NCBI GenBank assembly: GCA_016214745.1
Contig: JACRNW010000002.1
Location: 1 to 48,271 of the forward strand
Length of the DNA stretch: 48,271 nucleotides
Direction of reading: 5' to 3'
From: Candidatus Falkowiibacteriota bacterium
GTDB taxonomy: Bacteria; Patescibacteriota; Patescibacteriia; XYB2-FULL-38-15
Position numbers and translations under genes: made by a program. The first letter of the stretch is position 1. Every line of letters starts with the position of its first letter. Shown one piece after another: positions 9,294 to 28,022 of this stretch. Below the pieces are notes generated by a model, which did not search any database, was not told where the DNA came from, and saw only the letters and a list, made by a program, of their open reading frames with translations.

Positions 9294-9408
9294 TTGACAA
9301 TAAGATAAGTTGGTTTGAGAGAGACCCCCGCTTAGCGGGGGAAACCACCCTGAATTATTTTTATAAATAATTTAATTACGGGCGGATTCTCTCCGCCCGT
9401 TTTTGTTT
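9294..9408 (+). ncRNA. Promoter-proximal structured RNA ending in a terminator
   Basis: Between the promoter and the first island gene there is a possible RNA of about 110 nt. Hairpin 1: outer TGGTTT/AAACCA enclosing CCCCCGC (9325-9331)/GCGGGGG (9335-9341). An AT-rich linker follows, then the terminator hairpin (9378-9400) with a T-run. It could be a stand-alone small RNA or an attenuator leader for the island. No ORF of note inside. Confidence 0.45.
9378..9404 (+). terminator. Terminator/attenuator hairpin upstream of island A genes
   Basis: ACGGGCGGA (9378-9386) pairs with TCCGCCCGT (9392-9400), followed by TTTTT. It lies between the promoter at 9259 and the first ORF, so the island genes need read-through or another start. 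Confidence 0.8.
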
Positions 9409-9573
9409 GTCTAAATGACTTGAGGCGGCGAAGATTCGTCGATTCAAGCTAGGGTAGAAGCGCAAGTTTCTGCCCGAAGGAAGGAGCCCCAAACCGCACG
9501 GTGCGGAGAGAGGGGACAAGAGTTCATTGACTTCCCTGCAGAAATGCGGGGCAAAAGAAGGGAAGGGGAAAGA
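9405..9573 (+). ncRNA. Structured leader 1 of island A
   Basis: GC-rich leader with several plausible hairpins: CTTGA...TCAAG (about 9418-9448), GGGTAGAA/TTTCTGCCC (about 9452-9475), CCGCAC/GCGG nested in CCCC/GGGG (about 9487-9520), and CCCTGCA-GAAA-TGCGGGG (about 9535-9552). It ends with a purine-rich ribosome site. The phrase AGTTCATTGACTT, then a GAAA-loop hairpin, then CAAAAGAAGGRAGG is shared with leader 2. Confidence 0.5.
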
Positions 9574-10011
9574 ATGAAGGCGTACTTTTTCGTGATGGTG
9601 GGGTGTCTGATTCTGGGCGTGCTCGTAATGTTCGCGTTCGTGTTGTTCGGTGATCAGCCGGTTTCCGACGTGGGCAAACCCGCGGTCGTGGACGAGCCGG
9701 CCGGGACGAAGAACATCCCGCAGCCGGAGGAAGTGGCCGAGTGCCACGCCGATTCGGACTGCGAGATCGGTCTGGAGTGCTTCCGTGGCCAGTGCAGCTA
9801 CCCGTGCAGGGGCGCCTTGATGTGCCCCGTGGGGATGGTCTGCTCGGCCACCAGGTACTGCGAGGGCCATCCGGCCTGTCCGGACTACGGCCCGGAGATC
9901 TGCGACGGCCTCGACAACGACTGTGACGGTGTGATCGACGAGGAGGTTTGTCCGGGTCCTGTCGAGAGGTTGTTCTTAAACCCTGCGTCCCCATTCTGGA
10001 TTGGGCCATAA
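9574..10011 (+). CDS. Exported Cys-rich protein with 'DGLDNDCDG' motif
   Basis: 145 aa. An N-terminal signal-anchor (residues 4-25) is followed by a Pro/Glu linker, a Cys-rich region (CHADSDCEIGLECFRGQC, CPVGMVC, CEGHPAC) and the metal-binding-like motif ICDGLDNDCDGVIDEE. The latter is widespread in surface proteins of Myxococcota and relatives and occurs in some CPR. The ATG at 9574 follows GGGAAGGGGAAAG. Third codon positions are strongly G/C, unlike the native neighbours. Probably a surface or periplasm-facing protein; specific function unknown. Confidence 0.6.
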   Translation: MKAYFFVMVGCLILGVLVMFAFVLFGDQPVSDVGKPAVVDEPAGTKNIPQPEEVAECHADSDCEIGLECFRGQCSYPCRGALMCPVGMVCSATRYCEGHPACPDYGPEICDGLDNDCDGVIDEEVCPGPVERLFLNPASPFWIGP

Positions 10012-10305
10012 ATGACAATCCACCTTCCAAACGTCCTGGCTTCTAAAAGTATGCCAGGAAAGTTCAACCGTCAGGTTGAGCGCTTGCTAGAGTTTTGCGA
10101 AATCACGCAGCGATGCGTGGCAAGCAGCTTCAGCGAGTCAGGGAGCGGAACCCATCACAATGAGTTCCGCCCTTTTCCGAGACCGCCACCCAAAAAGGTG
10201 ACGGACTCAGAGAAGGAAGTTTCCCGGCCGCGAATTATCGCGTGTCCGGGGCAAAGTTCATTGACTTTCGCCGAAAGGCGGACAAAAGAAGGAAGGGAGA
10301 CAGAG
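10012..10305 (+). ncRNA. Structured spacer 2 (recurrent RNA architecture)
   Basis: Ordered stems: A CCTGGC (10035-10040)/GCCAGG (10053-10058); B TCAACC (10063-10068)/GGTTGA (10074-10079); C outer CTTGCT (10083-10088)/AGCGAG (10132-10137) enclosing AAATCAC and inner CACGCA (10104-10109)/TGCGTG (10114-10119); terminator-like GCGGAAC (10145-10151)/GTTCCGC (10164-10170) then CCTTTT; D CACC/GGTG (10187-10200); ACTCAGAGAAGGAAG; a CCCGG/CCGGG hairpin (about 10222-10250); and a GCC-GAAA-GGC hairpin just before the ribosome site. The same order recurs in the next two spacers. Confidence 0.65.
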
Positions 10306-10881
10306 ATGAAGAAGGTAATGGCTCTGTTCGCGGTGTTCATGATCGGCTGCAACAACACGTTCATCGACCTGACTCCGTGCTACGACGTCTACGCAGAAGT
10401 TCTGCCGGAGCTTCCGATGTACGATGATCAGCTGCCTATCCTCGGACTCCGAATCACGAACGATACGTGCGATACGGTATACGTCAAGTACATACTCACC
10501 GAACTTCGGCGGTTGGATGACGACTCGGCATTTTCCATCTGCAGCGTGTTCGATTGCTCGACATTCAGAGCATACCAAGATGGAAGGCTGGCCGTGGAGA
10601 GTGCGCCGCCCGGTGGAGGCAGCTGTTTGCTTGAGATTCACGTCAACTGGACTGGAACGGGCGATGGTTTGCCGTTCGGCGAAATCTCATCCCGCGGTTC
10701 AGCCGAGTTCGTGTACACCGCGATGATCCGGCCAGATGCTCCCTCGGGTCGATACCAGTATATCCTCACGGGGTACTGGATCGATGAGTTCGAGGTCGTG
10801 ATGAGCTGTAACGTCGAGGATCAGCCCGTTCCGAGCAAGCTCGGCGTTCCGATTCTCGGACCGGTCATTACCGTTTTGTAG
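10306..10881 (+). CDS. Lipoprotein, 'GCNNTFIDL' type
   Basis: 191 aa. Lipoprotein signal: MKKVMALFAVFMIGC, with the lipidated Cys at residue 15, followed by NNTFIDL, shared with the next gene (GCDNTFIDL). The mature domain is probably beta-rich (alternating hydrophobics, YVKYILTELRRLD, RYQYILTGYW) with scattered Cys (Asp-Thr-Cys, SICSVFDCS, MSCNVED). No named family recognised. The ATG at 10306 follows AAGGAAGGGAGACAGAG. GC-rich codon use, unlike native genes. Likely anchored on the outer face of the membrane. Confidence 0.6.
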   Translation: MKKVMALFAVFMIGCNNTFIDLTPCYDVYAEVLPELPMYDDQLPILGLRITNDTCDTVYVKYILTELRRLDDDSAFSICSVFDCSTFRAYQDGRLAVESAPPGGGSCLLEIHVNWTGTGDGLPFGEISSRGSAEFVYTAMIRPDAPSGRYQYILTGYWIDEFEVVMSCNVEDQPVPSKLGVPILGPVITVL

Positions 10882-11154
10882 TTCCTTCCAAACGTCCTGG
10901 CAAATTCCAAATCAAGTATGCCAGGAAAGTTCAACCGCCAGGTTGAGCGCTCGCTAAAGTTTTGCGAAATCACGCAGCGATGCGTGGCAAGCAACTAAAG
11001 CGAGTTAGAGCGGAACCCATCACAATGAGTTCCGCCCTTTTCCGAGATCGCCACCCAAAAAGGTGACGGACTCAGAGAAGGAAGTTTCTCGGCCGCGATG
11101 TTTCGCGTGTCCGAGGCAAAGTTCTTTACAACAAGGAAGGAAAGAGAGAAAAAG
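10882..11154 (+). ncRNA. Structured spacer 3 (recurrent RNA architecture)
   Basis: Close homologue of spacer 2. A CCTGGC (10896-10901)/GCCAGG (10920-10925), with a longer loop; B TCAACC (10931-10936)/GGTTGA (10941-10946); C CTCGCT (10950-10955)/AGCGAG (10999-11004) enclosing CACGCA (10971-10976)/TGCGTG (10981-10986); terminator-like GCGGAAC (11010-11016)/GTTCCGC (11029-11035) then CCCTTTT; a CACC/GGTG hairpin; ACTCAGAGAAGGAAG; CCGCG/CGCG hairpin; and a ribosome site. In stem C a U-G pair of spacer 2 becomes C-G here. Confidence 0.65.
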
Positions 11155-12531
11155 ATGAAGAATACGTTGATGGTTCTGTCCGTGGTTCTGTTCGCGGTCG
11201 GTTGCGACAACACGTTCATCGATTTGAGCAGCGAGTGCGAAACGAGCGCGGACTGCGCCGACGGCGACCCTTGCACGGTGGACATCTGCGACGTCGACAA
11301 CACCTGCGTCCAGATCCCGTCCGACAATCCGGCCTGCGATCCGGTGGACGACCGGGATGCCGACACCGATGCGGATGTCGGAGCCGAAACGGACGCCGAC
11401 GCCGACGCGGACGCTGATGCACACACCGACATCGTTCCCGACGACTACGAGGGCGACGAGCCCGGAGAGTGCGACGATCACGTGGACAACGACCGCGACG
11501 GTCTGTTCGACTGCGACGATCCCGGTTGCGCTCCGGGTCCGGCCTGTGAGACGCCTCCTGGCGCTGACGCCGATGCCGACGCTGATGCTGATGCGGACGC
11601 GGATGCAGACGCCGACGCAGATGTCGGAGTTGAAACGGACATCGACGCGGGCGCTGATGCGGATACCGATGCCGACGCAGACGCCGATGCTGGTTGCATG
11701 CCGACCGAAGAGCTCTGCGACGACCACACGGACAACGACTGTGACGGCGAAACGGACGAGTTGCCGGGGTGCGTATTTTGCCCCTCGGATTCCATGATCA
11801 CCTGCTACTATGATGCCGACCACGATGGCTACGGCGTTCCGGTACCGCCGATACGCGCATGCCCCTCTGCCTGTGTCGGCGACTGGACACCATTTTCAGG
11901 CGACTGCCGCTACTGGGATTCGGCTAGTTATCCCGGGGCAGAAGAAGTCTGCGATGGGCATGATAACGACTGCGACGCCGGAGTGGACGAAGGATGTTCC
12001 TGCTCTGACGGCGAAGTCGTTGTTTGCCACTGCGGCGAGGTGCTCGGAGAGTCCCATTGCGGCACCGATCATCTTTACGACGGGTCATGCGATTGTTCGG
12101 TCTGCGGGGACGGCGTCTGCTTCACGATCGGGGTATTCCAAGAGAATTGCCCGGCTGATTGCGGACTTCCCACCTGCGGAGACGGTGTCTGTGGCAGCGA
12201 TGAGACGTTGTTGACGTGCTCTCGCGATTGCGGCATGTGCAGGTTCAACTGGAATCTCGCCGGCTCGGCTGATCCGCCAGCGGCATGCGGTTCCTGGTGG
12301 TACATCTGGGACCGAGTACGTTGCGGCGGCTGGATTGGCCTATCGGCTGAGACTCCCACTACGGCGTGTCTCGATGCACTCCGGGCGCGGCTCGCTCTGC
12401 CTCCGGGCGTCGAGGGCCGCATCTACGGAGTCGATTCGGCCGGCCATACCTTGGCCGTCTCGATCGTCGATCCGGCATCGTCAGGCGGGCCGACGTGGCC
12501 GAGCCAACTCGGTTGGGCGTATTCCTTCTAG
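11155..12531 (+). CDS. Large Cys-rich lipoprotein with Asp-Ala repeats and 'DNDCDG' motifs
   Basis: 458 aa. Lipoprotein signal ends FAVGC, followed by DNTFIDL, as in the previous gene. Then come a Cys module ([18 protein letters not shown]), two low-complexity Asp-Ala tracts (residues about 62-87 and 138-180) that could bind divalent cations or act as spacers, and [15 protein letters not shown]. Two DNDCDG-type modules follow: [17 protein letters not shown] (about 185) and [18 protein letters not shown] (about 264), then further Cys repeats ([16 protein letters not shown] and [15 protein letters not shown] types) and a Trp/Cys C-terminal domain. The layout matches Myxococcota-like surface proteins. 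GC-rich codons; the repeat DNA also creates open minus-strand frames that are artefacts. Confidence 0.65.
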
Positions 12532-12772
12532 CCAAGAAGTTTGCCTCTGACAAATTCCCAAAAGGTTATGTCAGAGGAAATCGTCCGAGTCCTTCGGACG
12601 GTGGCTCGTAGATTTTCCTAAATCACCGCAAGGTGACAGCAAGAAAAAATACGAGCTTAGAGCGGAACCCATCACAATGAGTTCCGCCCTTTTTCGAGGA
12701 CATCACCCGCCCAAATTCGCTGACGCGAACTTCAGTCGGGTGGTGCACTCAAAGAAGGAGGCCAAGTAATAG
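12532..12772 (+). ncRNA. Structured spacer 4 (recurrent RNA architecture, divergent sequence)
   Basis: Same order of elements as spacers 2 and 3 but with mostly different stem sequences. A CCTCTGAC (12544-12551)/GTCAGAGG (12570-12577); B CGTCCG (12582-12587)/CGGACG (12595-12600); C GCTCGTA (12604-12610)/TACGAGC (12650-12656) enclosing AAATCACC (CACC 12624-12627)/GGTG (12632-12635); terminator GCGGAAC (12662-12668)/GTTCCGC (12681-12687) then CCCTTTTT; D CACCCG (12704-12709)/CGGGTG (12737-12742) with inner TTCGC/GCGAA; then ACTCAAAGAAGGAGG, which is itself the ribosome site. Pairing is kept while sequence changes, which is covariation. Confidence 0.7.
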
Positions 12773-12976
12773 ATGGAGGCGCTCGTGAAGATTGTAAGGG
12801 TTGTGATGGGGATTGTGGTGGCGGTAGCGTACCTTTACATCTTGCTCAGTTTCGTCAAGAAGTACGAGCGTCGCCGGCTAATGGTAGTCGGCGAAACGGG
12901 GGACGGCGGGGATCGCGTGTTCCCAATCATGTTGTTCGTCGCTTTCGTCGGGACCTTGTTGGTCCTTGGCGAATAG
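12773..12976 (+). CDS. Small two-TM membrane protein
   Basis: 67 aa: TM1 about residues 8-27, a basic loop (KKYERRRLMVV) with a Gly/Asp stretch, TM2 about 48-65, ending VLGE. Ribosome site AAGGAGG upstream of the ATG at 12773. The first of three tightly spaced small membrane genes (9-nt gap, then a 4-nt overlap), so an operon. Function unknown. Confidence 0.6.
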   Translation: MEALVKIVRVVMGIVVAVAYLYILLSFVKKYERRRLMVVGETGDGGDRVFPIMLFVAFVGTLLVLGE

Positions 12977-22099: not shown

Positions 22100-22435
22100 A
22101 TGAAAAGGCTTGTTGCGGTTGTTTTGGCTGCGTTAATCGGTTGCGGCGGACAAGCTGTCCAGTCTCCGGTCGACATCGAAGTAGTAGAAGCTTTGTACGT
22201 AGAACTGTCTCTCACGCGCATCGGCGTGGCCCTCTGTTTGACGTCGCGATCGGTTGAATGGAGTGTCGCCATTGATCCTGCGCGAAGCGACGTGCGCCGT
22301 CTTCGAGACGAGTACGGCGTCTACTATGAAAGCGATCGGACCGGCGCGTACTGCGGCCCGGTCTGCCAAGAGATGCAGAATTTTTTGGCGGAGGCCAATC
22401 AAGCAGGATTAATTTCCTGCGAGGAGAAGGAGTGA
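22100..22435 (+). CDS. Small lipoprotein, GC-rich cassette C
   Basis: 111 aa. Lipoprotein signal MKRLVAVVLAALIGC (lipid Cys at residue 15), then GGQAVQSPVDI. The mature part has two Cys pairs (YCGPVC, SCEEKE) and a helical end (CQEMQNFLAEANQAGL). No family recognised. Same cassette as the two-TM protein at 21875, the same pairing of lipoprotein and small membrane protein as in island A. Confidence 0.55.
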   Translation: MKRLVAVVLAALIGCGGQAVQSPVDIEVVEALYVELSLTRIGVALCLTSRSVEWSVAIDPARSDVRRLRDEYGVYYESDRTGAYCGPVCQEMQNFLAEANQAGLISCEEKE

Positions 22436-22528: not shown

Positions 22529-24097
22529 TTAGAAATTTTTTACCATGTATGTTCCGTCGGGATGATAGCCGATTTTTTTATAATATTCCCGGACGCCGAC
22601 ACCGGAAATAACAGCCACTTTTTTGACGCCGGATTTTCGCGCAATTTTTTCCGCCTCGGCCATTAATTTTTTTCCAAGACCAAGATGCTGTGTCGCGTCG
22701 GGAGATTTTTGATCAATTGGCACGAGATGTCCATAAGTATGAAGTTCGCGAATCAGGGCTGCGTCTTCTAATTCCGGCAAGATAGTTGGCGTTTTAAAAT
22801 TAGGAATTCTCAAACGAACAAAAGCGTAGAGGATTTTTTTGTCCGGTGATTCAAAACTGATAAAATATTCCATGCCGCCGGACGCGGCGTATTTTTTTGT
22901 AAATAATTTTGGGACAGCATTTCTGATTTTTTTTTGATGCCCGACCTCGCGGCATCTGATACATTTACATTGTAGACCCCGTCGCGTCATTTCGGCGGTA
23001 ATGACTTCCCGCAGATTGGAAACTTTATTTCCCGCCGCAATACTCGGGCTCGGAATGTCGCGGATCAGACGATTGACGCGGACGTAAGGCGGAATTATTT
23101 TTTTAATATTGATGAGTAATGCTACGAGTTGTTTTTCCGAATACGGTTTGTATTTTCCTTGTTTCCACCATTTGTAAATTTCCGAACCGTGCGTCACGAC
23201 ACAAGGATAAATTTTAATCATATCCGGCTGGAAGTTGGGATTCCTAAATACTTCGCGGAACATCTTTAAATCCTTGGCCGGAGTGGAGCCGGGGAGGTTT
23301 GGCATCAAGTGGTAGCAAATTTTAAATCCAGCGTTTTTTAAAAGTTTTGTGGCACGGATGGTTTCGGAAATATTGTGTCCGCGGCGGTTTCGCTGTAAGA
23401 TAGAATTGTAAATACTTTGCACGCCGAGCTCCACTCTTGTGGCACCGAGTTCTCGCATTTGTTTAATTTCTTCGGGCGTAATATAATCTGGCCGAGTTTC
23501 AAGAGTGATGCCAATAATTCTGTGCTTGGCGGTTTCATTTGTTTTTTGCGCTGCAGCCAAGTTTTTACTTTTTCTGCCGTTCGCACCGTCAAAACATCTT
23601 TGGATAAACCATTTTTGATATTTGTCCGGAAGAGCCGACCAAGTTCCACCGATCACAATCAGTTCCAGCTTGTCGGTTGGATGGCCGTTCATTTCCAAAA
23701 CTTTAATTCTTCCGACGACTTGTTTTTGGGGATCAAAATGAAAAGCTACGGCCCGCATCACGGCCGGTTCGTTGGACAAATAACTTTTTGGCATATTTTT
23801 TTCCGTCGGACAATAAGCGCAGCGTCCCGGGCAAGGATAGAATTTTGTTAAAACGGCAATTGGCGCCACGCCGGAAATTGTCCGCACTTCGCGTTTTTTG
23901 AGGAGCGCCTCCAACCGTTCATCGCGTTTGATTTTTTTCTGCCGCAAGAGTTTTTTATAAATTTTAAAAATATCGGCGGAGAGGGGCGAGGCCATTTTAA
24001 ACTCGCCGGCGGTCTGGCGTTTAATCTGCGCCAAATCAGTGCGGCTTTGGGGCCGGGATTTGATAATTTTTCTGGAGATGGTTTCTAAAGTATTCAT
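22529..24097 (-). CDS. elp3: Elp3-like tRNA uridine-34 carboxymethyl-forming radical SAM/GNAT enzyme
   Basis: 522 aa. N-terminal basic region, then the radical SAM cluster C89-x3-C93-x2-C96 (FYPCPGRCAYCPTE), MNGHPTDKLELIVIGGTWS, ITLETRPDYI, TRVELGVQSIY, and a C-terminal GNAT acetyltransferase domain (LGLGKKLMAEAEKIARKSGVKKVAVISGVGVREYYKKIGY). Elp3 uses acetyl-CoA and SAM to make cm5U at wobble position 34; bacterial and archaeal Elp3 can act without the other Elongator subunits. The start at 24097 is 3 nt from the divergent methyltransferase ATG; an upstream alternative would overlap that gene. Gene order suggests the two act in one pathway. Confidence 0.9.
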   Translation of the reverse strand: MNTLETISRKIIKSRPQSRTDLAQIKRQTAGEFKMASPLSADIFKIYKKLLRQKKIKRDERLEALLKKREVRTISGVAPIAVLTKFYPCPGRCAYCPTEKNMPKSYLSNEPAVMRAVAFHFDPQKQVVGRIKVLEMNGHPTDKLELIVIGGTWSALPDKYQKWFIQRCFDGANGRKSKNLAAAQKTNETAKHRIIGITLETRPDYITPEEIKQMRELGATRVELGVQSIYNSILQRNRRGHNISETIRATKLLKNAGFKICYHLMPNLPGSTPAKDLKMFREVFRNPNFQPDMIKIYPCVVTHGSEIYKWWKQGKYKPYSEKQLVALLINIKKIIPPYVRVNRLIRDIPSPSIAAGNKVSNLREVITAEMTRRGLQCKCIRCREVGHQKKIRNAVPKLFTKKYAASGGMEYFISFESPDKKILYAFVRLRIPNFKTPTILPELEDAALIRELHTYGHLVPIDQKSPDATQHLGLGKKLMAEAEKIARKSGVKKVAVISGVGVREYYKKIGYHPDGTYMVKNF

Positions 24098-24100
24098 TTT

Positions 24101-24832
24101 ATGAAAGATGAAGTCGCGAAAAAAATATTGGATAAAATTAAGGCCGATTACGCGGTAATCGCGCCCCAGTTTTCGGCAAAAAGACAAAAATTTTGGAATG
24201 AGATGCGCGATTTTGCCGAAAGTTTGGGGCCGGGCGACCGCGTGCTTGATTTGGGATGCGGCAACGGAAGATTGTACGAGGTTTTGAAAGAAAAGTCAAT
24301 TGACTACACGGGCGTTGATAATTCGCCGGAACTTTTGGATTTTGCCAAAAAGAGGTGGGGCAAAAATGAATCTCGGCGATTTTTGCTGGGCGACGCGACG
24401 AATTTGGATTGGTGGAAAGGGGAGAAATACAGTGTGGTTTTTTTGATTGCCACCCTGCATCACATTCCGTCGGAAAATTTGCGGAAAAAAGTTTTGGAAA
24501 ATGTCAGCCAGGTTCTTTCGCCAAACGGATTTTTGATTATGACCAACTGGGCGCTTTTCAGGAAAAAATATCTGATACTTGTCGTGAAAAATATAATTTT
24601 AAAATTATCCGGCCGGAGCGATTTGGATTTTGGCGACGCCGTGGTTCCCTGGAAGAGTTCCGAAACCGGCAAGGTTATGGCCGAGCGTTATGTTCATGCT
24701 TTTACTTTACGGGAATTGAAGCGTCTCGTCAAAGAATCGGGATTTGAAATTTTGGAAAATTTTTATTCCATTGACGACCGCAAAGCGCATTTTTGGAATG
24801 GGAAGAATATTGTCACAATCGCGAAAAAGTGA
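24101..24832 (+). CDS. Trm9/ALKBH8-like tRNA cm5U methyltransferase (predicted)
   Basis: 243 aa, class I SAM methyltransferase: VLDLGCGNGR (residues 48-57), YTGVDNS (about 69-75), LLGDATNL, ATLHHIPS. Several features match the eukaryotic Trm9 family specifically: the N-terminal YAVIAPQFSAKRQKFW (yeast Trm9 has a very similar YNEIAPHFSxxRYKPW), VVPWK (residues 181-185), and ERYVHAFTLREL (195-206), corresponding to the RYYHxYREGEL block. Trm9 methylates cm5U34 to mcm5U34. It is divergent from and 3 nt away from the Elp3 gene, which would make its substrate. Specific function is inference; a generic methyltransferase is the alternative. A Trm112 partner is not in the window. Confidence 0.65.
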   Translation: MKDEVAKKILDKIKADYAVIAPQFSAKRQKFWNEMRDFAESLGPGDRVLDLGCGNGRLYEVLKEKSIDYTGVDNSPELLDFAKKRWGKNESRRFLLGDATNLDWWKGEKYSVVFLIATLHHIPSENLRKKVLENVSQVLSPNGFLIMTNWALFRKKYLILVVKNIILKLSGRSDLDFGDAVVPWKSSETGKVMAERYVHAFTLRELKRLVKESGFEILENFYSIDDRKAHFWNGKNIVTIAKK

Positions 24833-26316: not shown

Positions 26317-26454
26317 TCTCCCCTTAAGGTAAGGGGAGATCAAGAGGGGTTATGAGCGGTGGATTTAGTGGCACGGTTCATAACGCCCCCGCCCGCCACG
26401 CAAGCCAGCCCCGCCTGCAACGCTATGCTTGCATTAGCGGGCAGGTTGCTGGCG
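26317..26454. repeat. ORF-less relative of the DUF559 element ends, plus 78-bp repeat copy 1
   Basis: 26317-26354 (CCCCTTAAGGTAAGGGG... AGGGGTTATGAG) resembles the left end of the DUF559 element including its ATG. Then TTCATAAC (26377-26384) matches its right end, leaving only about 30 bp between. A GC-rich 78-bp block (26377-26454) follows that is identical to 27905-27982. It reads like a deletion derivative. Confidence 0.55.
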
Positions 26455-27204
26455 CGTTTTGCCGCGGTGTGGTGAATCCTGGACGTAGGTCGGCAAACAA
26501 ATACCGGAAATTTTTTTGCGCAATTGGCGCATTATTTTTTTACCTTTTTTTATCGGAACCCAATATTTTTTTGTCCCGCGCGCCGGGTCGCATTGATGCA
26601 GATAATATGGTTTGATGGCAAGATCGACAAGACTATAAAACAATTTCTTTAGGGTGTCTACGTCGTCGTTTATGCCGCGGAGCAAAACCGATTGAGAGAG
26701 AAGGGGAATACCGGCTGTCGTGAAAATTGCGACAGCTTTTTTAAATTGTGGCGTAATTTCTTTTGGATGATTAATATGAATTATAATCCAAAGCGGCGTG
26801 GCGCGACGAAGTATGGCCGCCATTTTTTTTGTGATGCGCGATGGAAGTGTAACTGGAATCCGAGTGTGGACGCGCAGAAGTTTAATATGCGGAATGGCGG
26901 ACAGGCGTTTCAAAATGTCCGATAAAATTTTTGGAGGCAGGAAAAGTGGATCGCCGCCGGACAAAATCACCTCGCGGATGGTTTTGTCTTTTTTAATATA
27001 ATCAATCGCGGCAGCCATTTCATCTTTGCTAAGTTTGCCGTTTTTTCCGTTCACCATATTTTTTCTAAAACAAAAATCGCAGCGCGAAGGACAAGTGTAA
27101 GTCGGACAGAAAATCACCCGGTCGGAATATTTTTTGATAATTCCCCGAACTGGCGAATATTTTTTCTCGGCCAACGGATCATCAGATTCTATTTTATATT
27201 TCAT
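26434..27204 (-). CDS. KamA-like radical SAM protein (lysine 2,3-aminomutase family), shortened C-terminus
   Basis: 256 aa, short for the family (about 330-420 aa in characterised LAMs). Radical SAM cluster C38-x3-C42-x2-C45 (CPSRCDFCFRK), VILSGGDPLFLPP, HTRIPVTLPSRIT, QSVLLRGIND, YYLHQCDPARGTKKYWVPIKKG, and near the end PTYVQDSPHRGK, where the final Lys aligns with the PLP lysine. The last residues (TRQQPAR) come from the 78-bp repeat, so the natural C-terminus has been replaced or trimmed. Substrate is uncertain: free lysine, or a lysine on EF-P (EpmB-like). Confidence 0.75.
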   Translation of the reverse strand: MKYKIESDDPLAEKKYSPVRGIIKKYSDRVIFCPTYTCPSRCDFCFRKNMVNGKNGKLSKDEMAAAIDYIKKDKTIREVILSGGDPLFLPPKILSDILKRLSAIPHIKLLRVHTRIPVTLPSRITKKMAAILRRATPLWIIIHINHPKEITPQFKKAVAIFTTAGIPLLSQSVLLRGINDDVDTLKKLFYSLVDLAIKPYYLHQCDPARGTKKYWVPIKKGKKIMRQLRKKISGICLPTYVQDSPHRGKTRQQPAR

Positions 27205-27353: not shown

Positions 27354-27728
27354 ATGCCGCTCATCGTAGTTCATAGTGCACGAAGAGTTGATAATTACAC
27401 GGGCGGCGCAATGGAATTGCGCCGACTGCTCCGCGATGCCTGCTTGAGCATCAAGGAACTGAAGCTCAGTGCAAGCGACATCGTGATCGAAATCTGGGAC
27501 GTATCGGTAAACGCCTTCGTAGAAGGTGAAGAACACGCTCCGGTCGTCATCGTGGTTGAACTGCTCTTCGACAATCCGGAACGGACGATTGAGGTCCGCA
27601 GAAAGCTCGCCGAAGCCCTCGGTAAAGCGGCGAAGGGCTACTACACCATGATCGATGGTTCGTCATGGCCGGTAGAAGTCGCGGTCAAGCGCTTCAGCCC
27701 CGAGAAGGACGCCTTCTGGAACGGCTAG
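27354..27728 (+). CDS. GC-rich cassette D protein, possibly tautomerase-like
   Basis: 124 aa. N-terminus MPLIVVHSARR would expose Pro after Met removal, as in the tautomerase superfamily. Two alternating helix/strand units are visible: LRRLLRDACLSIKELKLSASDIVIEIWD, then EHAPVVIVVELLFD followed by PERTIEVRRKLAEALGKAAKGYY, ending VEVAVKRFSPEKDAFWNG. That repeat of beta-alpha-beta with Pro-1 fits a fused tautomerase, but key residues cannot be confirmed, so treat as hypothetical. GAGGAGGG upstream; strongly GC-rich codons. Confidence 0.6.
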   Translation: MPLIVVHSARRVDNYTGGAMELRRLLRDACLSIKELKLSASDIVIEIWDVSVNAFVEGEEHAPVVIVVELLFDNPERTIEVRRKLAEALGKAAKGYYTMIDGSSWPVEVAVKRFSPEKDAFWNG

Positions 27729-27904: not shown

Positions 27905-28022
27905 TTCATAACGCCCCCGCCCGCCACGCAAGCCAGCCCCGCCTGCAACGCTATGCTTGCATTAGCGGGCAGGTTGCTGGCGTTGCGGGCAGGCCCAGCC
28001 CCTCTTATCTTAAGAGGGGTGA
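27905..28022. repeat. 78-bp repeat copy 2 and a DUF559-type end
   Basis: 27905-27982 is identical to 26377-26454 (starts TTCATAACGCCCCCGCCC, ends GGCAGGTTGCTGGCG). It is followed by CCCCTCTTATCTTAAGAGGGG at about 28003-28019, the palindromic core of the DUF559 element ends. Confidence 0.65.

Follow-up and report, generated by a model that had tools for sequence, protein, structure and literature searches.

A divergent elp3 and trm9-like gene pair of Patescibacteria and a predicted Trm112-independent route to mcm5U34

Can a bacterium form the wobble nucleoside mcm5U with an Elp3 and a methyltransferase that resembles Trm9? The question is raised by a locus on contig JACRNW010000002.1 of a Candidatus Falkowiibacteriota bacterium (assembly GCA_016214745.1), which was analysed over its whole length of 48,271 nucleotides and is referred to here as the window. 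This host belongs to the Patescibacteria (CPR), and its genome comprises 923,119 bases in 19 contigs, of which the window is one, with a completeness of 95%. A previous reading of the letters alone (the sequence-only reading) had claimed that an elp3 gene diverges here from a gene for a Trm9-like methyltransferase, and had proposed a compact, eukaryote-like pathway to mcm5U. Elp3 is the only Elongator subunit found in prokaryotes (PMC2584109, PMC6367351). A catalogue of 2020 lists mcm5U and mcm5s2U for archaea and/or eukaryotes and does not assign them to bacteria (PMC7694415); a review of 2017 had identified no homologues of the Trm112-dependent methyltransferases in bacteria (PMC5372719). 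The presence of Elp3 in bacteria was already known, as was the clustering of the Elp3 and Trm9 genes in S. solfataricus, noted in 2008 (PMC2584109). A full-text search, with subscription papers and preprints outside its reach, returned no paper linking Elp3 with Patescibacteria or CPR and no description of a bacterial Trm9.

The two genes lie as had been claimed, on opposite strands with 3 nt between their ATG codons (Table 1), and the start of the methyltransferase is backed by its relatives, whose alignments open at the same methionine. The Elp3 protein scored 620 bits against TIGR01211 (cut-off, 350), and the nearest solved structures are the Elp3 of M. infernus (500 bits) and that of Dehalococcoides mccartyi (DmcElp3, 439 bits). 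The window protein has in common with DmcElp3 the CX3CX2C cluster motif, the zinc motif and the KAT residues; it differs at the N-terminus, where the alignable part is preceded by a basic extension of some 65 residues like that of archaeal Elp3, and in its linked Trm9-like partner, and we know of no such partner for the D. mccartyi enzyme. The CxCxxC form of the zinc motif is typical of bacterial and archaeal Elp3 (PMC6367351). The DmcElp3 residues K77, K193, E386 and Y441, a set taken from the same work (PMC6367351), align with K143, K259, E451 and Y505, and the three-cysteine motif of the radical SAM domain and the KAT residues are all retained. It has been demonstrated in vitro that archaeal Elp3 forms cm5U34, with an acetate-derived group, by radical SAM/KAT chemistry (PMC13315578); judging from its sequence, the window Elp3 is predicted to form cm5U34 in tRNA as well.

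Table 1. Position of the two genes and of their motifs in the window.
Feature	Position	Strand	Remarks
elp3, radical SAM + GNAT, predicted tRNA U34 carboxymethyltransferase, 522 aa	22529..24097	-	ATG 24097, stop 22529
trm9-like class I SAM methyltransferase, 243 aa, predicted cm5U34 carboxyl-O-methyltransferase	24101..24832	+	ATG 24101, stop 24832
3-nt gap (TTT) between the divergent ATGs	24098..24100	.	
Elp3 [4Fe-4S] motif C89-PGR-C93-AY-C96 (CX3CX2C)	23810..23833	-	spacing as in D. mccartyi Elp3 CPGKCIYC
Elp3 zinc motif CKCIRC (377-382)	22952..22969	-	CxCxxC
Elp3 C-terminal GNAT/KAT core, includes REYYKKIGY	22550..22696	-	Pfam Acetyltransf
Methyltransferase N-terminal block YAVIAPQFSAKRQKFW (Y17-W32)	24149..24196	+	R28 = yeast Trm9 R29
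Methyltransferase SAM-binding motif I DLGCGNG (D50-G56)	24248..24268	+	
Methyltransferase HH (H120, H121)	24458..24463	+	H120 = Trm9 H115; H120 in 113/138, H121 in 135/138
Methyltransferase lid strand 1 DAVVPW (D179-W184)	24635..24652	+	as Trm9 D(V)xVPW
Methyltransferase lid strand 2 RYVHAF (R196-F201)	24686..24703	+	R196 = Trm9 R241, V198 = Trm9 Y243
Methyltransferase N236, close to the C-terminus	24806..24808	+	= Trm9 N271; N in 131/138

For the methyltransferase no equivalog cut-off was exceeded in a Pfam/NCBIfam search, which returned generic class I methyltransferase families only. Among the PDB sequences, the top match of the single sequence was Trm9 of Y. lipolytica (5CM2), and a profile made from 30 relatives also placed 5CM2 first (99.5 bits over residues 26-222), followed by 3SM3 (91.3 bits), a Methanosarcina methyltransferase without an assigned function that nearly equals 5CM2 by profile and by structure. 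Against the family profile, full-length yeast Trm9 scored 131.9 bits, the tested paralogues unlinked to Elp3 at most 113, and the E. coli enzymes UbiG, UbiE, Tam, BioC, CmoM, CmoA and CmoB from 47 to 17 bits (UbiG 47, CmoM 35, CmoA 30). The reciprocal question was put, with only part of the 5CM2 sequence as the query, to the host genome and to a class set of 95 genomes, made up of the host and of relatives that with few exceptions belong to its class: the methyltransferase was the best and sole match in the host (E 3e-10), and of the 56 class genomes with the family, 55 had a family member as the best match. A second Trm9-like methyltransferase, unlinked to Elp3, with an RYYYY lid motif and no counterpart of R29, occurs in one class relative (G054), and this copy (L218, C77:1-1500) outranks the Elp3-linked one as the best match of yeast Trm9 in that genome.

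The likeness to eukaryotic Trm9 extends over the N-terminal block, the HH pair, the VPW/RYxH lid and the asparagine near the C-terminus. The blocks that had been described as specific to Trm9 are all found, YxxIAPxFSxxRxxxW at residues 17-32, VPW at 182-184 and RYxHxF at 196-201, and they are conserved among 138 family sequences. It has been reported that R29, H115, R241, Y243 and N271 of yeast Trm9 matter for tRNA binding and catalysis (PMC5372719). Four of these five are retained in the window protein (R28, H120, R196 and N236, for R29, H115, R241 and N271), and the conservation of their columns in the 138 sequences is, in yeast numbering, 100% for R29, 82% for H115, 92% for R241 and 95% for N271; the position of Y243 is occupied by V198 in the window protein and by valine in its lineage, and by tyrosine in 85 of the 138 relatives (62%). 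In the same alignment, this residue set is not common to the paralogous methyltransferases or to the E. coli enzymes. The AlphaFold model of the protein (pLDDT 94) has a class I fold with a two-stranded lid over the active site, whose strands (residues 179-185 and 192-199) are formed by DAVVPW and by ERYVHAF and match the description of the Trm9 lid. A Foldseek search with this model returned 3SM3 first and 5CM2 second, the latter with the highest target-normalised TM score in the list (0.82). By alignment, a helix at residues 155-169, which connects core and lid, is apparently missing from Trm9; as a conjecture, this helix could stabilise the bacterial protein when it is alone.

In the phylogenetic tree, the Elp3-linked bacterial proteins and Trm9 form one group, apart from the paralogues and the E. 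coli enzymes (support 92/81). The yeast Trm9 sequence included in the trees lacks the long internal insert of the protein and was checked by a 254-bit match to the Y. lipolytica chain of 5CM2 and by the occurrence of R29 and H115 at the published positions. The addition of a haloarchaeal homologue sharpened the resolution only modestly; yeast Trm9 and this homologue are sisters (99/97), and the two together are sister to the bacterial clade (81/64). The branches are long, and the AU test did not reject a grouping of Trm9 with other methyltransferases (p 0.33). The tree is thus in agreement with a common descent with Trm9, which it does not prove, and it suggests, with modest strength, that the bacterial methyltransferases are a bacterial sister lineage and not a eukaryotic import, no sign of a recent import being visible in it. 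Searches of phage and plasmid collections gave generic methyltransferases only, besides one haloarchaeal plasmid gene. The profile and best-match comparisons, with the tree in agreement, favour the earlier claim in that the window protein stands nearer to Trm9 than to the remaining methyltransferases with which it was compared. As for the epithet eukaryote-like, it holds for the features shared with Trm9 and fails in the sense of eukaryote-derived, given the place of the bacterial clade beside haloarchaeal and eukaryotic Trm9. We predict that the protein works like Trm9; we refrain from assigning it to the Trm9 family proper, since the tree does not settle the matter and Trm112 was looked for and not found, as described below.

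It could be argued that Elp3 makes cm5U34 and that the methyltransferase is directed to another product or position, i.e. a uridine ester of the cmo5U type as in the case of CmoM, a different nucleotide in the same tRNAs, or a protein. We consider this unlikely. Class I methyltransferases readily switch substrate, Trm9, the nearest of the characterised homologues, is remote (28% identity), and its Y243 is not retained in the window protein; nevertheless, the residues that are conserved are those with which Trm9 orients its substrate, and the gene partner is Elp3, the maker of cm5U. CmoM, the cmo5U34 carboxyl methyltransferase of E. coli, is also a class I enzyme that forms a carboxyl methyl ester on a wobble uridine, and it was rejected as the nearest kin: the 35 bits it reaches with the family profile compare with 132 for yeast Trm9, it is without the Trm9 residue set, and it stands separate in the trees.

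A Trm9-like function of the methyltransferase, which is the reading that we prefer, is accompanied by a conserved association with elp3. In the class set, 53 genomes carry both genes, 3 the methyltransferase only, 4 Elp3 only and 35 neither (n = 95; Fisher p 5e-18, a value that ignores shared ancestry and is hence too small). The genes are divergent on one contig in 47 of the 53 two-gene genomes (37 within 500 nt, 7 within 2 kb and 3 further apart), and in two of the four genomes counted as Elp3 only (G023 and G090) a more diverged family member adjoins Elp3 in divergent orientation. A profile search of GTDB genomes yielded 80 methyltransferase loci, which include Kuenenbacteria, Uhrbacteria, Nealsonbacteria, Berkelbacteria, Peregrinibacteria, Gracilibacteria and other lineages; at 62 of them a divergent Elp3 gene is adjoining. 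In a phylum sample of 333 Patescibacteria genomes, in which the methyltransferase was accepted at 110 bits or more, Elp3 is present in 119, the methyltransferase in 86 and both in 84, and 74 of these 84 have the genes as divergent neighbours within 2.5 kb. Since 35 of the 119 Elp3 genomes have no methyltransferase at the 110-bit threshold, methylation is not obligatory. The pairing is a phylum-wide arrangement, neither a matter of chance nor peculiar to the host genome. The gene pair described in the sequence-only reading is confirmed. Family members were also detected in records labelled Omnitrophota (L118), Lysobacteraceae (L126) and Ignavibacteriales (L142), in L126 and L142 together with a divergent Elp3; these may be misbinned contigs or cases of transfer, and were not counted as spread beyond Patescibacteria.

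The genomes of Patescibacteria are compact, and related lineages can preserve their gene order; the pair might in principle be a frozen divergent order that joins elp3 to a generic methyltransferase with no functional coupling. This is very improbable, as 84 of the 86 methyltransferase genomes, which represent many lineages of the phylum, have Elp3 too, and in 10 genomes the neighbourhood has been lost and both genes have been retained. That the pair is a product of assembly chimerism or contamination, or of a recent transfer from archaea or eukaryotes, is hardly credible despite the nearby GC-rich islands of the window, which are unlike core genes, since dozens of Patescibacteria genomes that were assembled independently, some of them in 1 to 3 contigs, show this arrangement, orthologues are 80% identical within the genus and 59% within the family, and the bacterial proteins form their own clade.

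Other features of the window were recorded. The GC content reaches 0.61 at 9376-12800, compared with about 0.43 for most of the window, and this segment, which looks like a foreign or cassette-type island, carries two tandem lipoprotein-like ORFs (10012-10881 and 11098-12531), both with the motif GC[ND]NTFIDL and separated by direct repeats of about 215 nt (10047-10262, 10914-11127, and a part at 12657-12708). A small lipoprotein-like ORF in the style of this island (MKRLVAVVLAALIGCGGQ...) lies beside elp3 at 22100-22435. Further along, an identical direct repeat of 78 nt (26377-26454 and 27905-27982) flanks a radical SAM ORF similar to lysine-2,3-aminomutase (26434-27204) and an ORF at 27354-27728, a segment that is possibly an insertion or mobile element.

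The MnmE-MnmG-MnmC/MnmM route (xnm5U34) is directed to the same nucleotide position, C5 of U34, and probably to the same tRNAs, with a different chemistry and unrelated enzymes. The sequence-only reading had called for a search of the genome for this route, and MnmE and MnmG are both absent: MnmG (TIGR00136) was not found over the cut-off, and MnmE (PF12631) was not found, in the host genome or in any of the 95 genomes of the class set, in searches whose controls were positive in E. coli, B. subtilis and others. Matches to MnmG in 19 class genomes (about 17-24 bits) were discarded as weak matches to an FAD motif. In the phylum sample, MnmG is over the cut-off in 6 of the 333 genomes, and these 6 have neither Elp3 nor the methyltransferase; around 200 of the 333 have neither MnmG nor Elp3, and any C5 chemistry of U34 in these bacteria would call for another explanation. 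The 2-thiolation enzyme MnmA is over the cut-off in 87 of the 95 class genomes. It was not found in the host assembly (95% complete), and this may be an assembly gap, because a genome of the same genus has MnmA in two pieces.

Trm112, the obligatory partner of eukaryotic Trm9, had been named as another protein to look for. No match to PF03966 was found in the host genome, and the cut-off was exceeded in only 3 of the 95 class genomes, the search control being positive in bacteria and archaea; the predicted pathway would therefore be a Trm112-independent version, and this absence is its main departure from the known Trm9 systems. Activity without Trm112 has a precedent in Trm11 of Thermococcales (PMC5372719). 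In one Patescibacteria genome (G023; L235, C4:186300-188600) we observed an ORF of 359 aa in which a methyltransferase domain accompanies a zinc domain similar to Trm112 (PF03966, 35.8 bits), an arrangement that recalls the archaeal Trm112-methyltransferase fusions.

The tRNAs with U34 in the host genome include Lys-UUU, Gln-UUG, Glu-UUC, Arg-UCU and Gly-UCC. The C34 isoacceptors (CUU, CUG, CUC, CCU and CCC) are also present, so a modification is not needed merely to read the codons that end in G, and the likelier gain would be in the precision and efficiency of codon reading.

From these analyses we consider it highly probable that the two genes constitute a minimal, Trm112-independent pathway for the wobble uridine, U34 to cm5U to mcm5U, or to mcm5s2U with MnmA. 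In this pathway Elp3, alone and with SAM, acetyl-CoA and its [4Fe-4S] cluster, would place a carboxymethyl group on C5 of U34, and the Trm9-like protein, acting without Trm112, would transfer a methyl group from SAM to the carboxylate of cm5U34, yielding the ester mcm5U34 as the predicted product. In the relatives with MnmA, and probably in the host too, the Lys, Gln and Glu tRNAs would be 2-thiolated as well, giving mcm5s2U34. The route would stand in for MnmE/MnmG, which the class is missing. With the systems formed by Elongator (Elp1-6) and Trm9-Trm112 or ALKBH8-TRMT112 it would share Elp3 as the catalytic subunit making cm5U34; unlike in eukaryotes, Elp1, 2 and 4-6 are not expected in the host genome, no Trm112 was found, thiolation would depend on the bacterial MnmA and not on Ctu1/Ctu2, and the two genes are divergent and 3 nt apart. 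A stand-alone Elp3 is shared with the archaea that have Trm9 homologues (Haloferax, Sulfolobus), in which thiolation is due to NcsA/Tuc1. The window pair differs from the archaeal systems in its occurrence in Patescibacteria, in its divergent arrangement and in having no Trm112, with which archaeal Trm9 reportedly works, according to a statement in PMC7694415 that cites van Tran 2018.

Extended to the phylum, the reading that we regard as probable is that in a large part of the Patescibacteria, which has no MnmEG, mcm5(s2)U34 is made by Elp3 as a stand-alone enzyme together with a Trm9-like methyltransferase that does not depend on Trm112. No earlier case of an mcm5U pathway in bacteria would then be on record; by its use of MnmA for thiolation the route would be a hybrid, and its methyltransferase would be a bacterial sister of the archaeal and eukaryotic Trm9 lineage that maybe keeps the form that preceded the dependence on Trm112. 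The phylum-wide pair, found where MnmE/MnmG are missing, could explain the modification of the wobble uridine in part of a very large bacterial group, and it makes a directly testable chemical prediction. It would also offer a minimal system of two enzymes, free of Trm112, for the study of Elongator chemistry and of the origin of the eukaryotic pathway.
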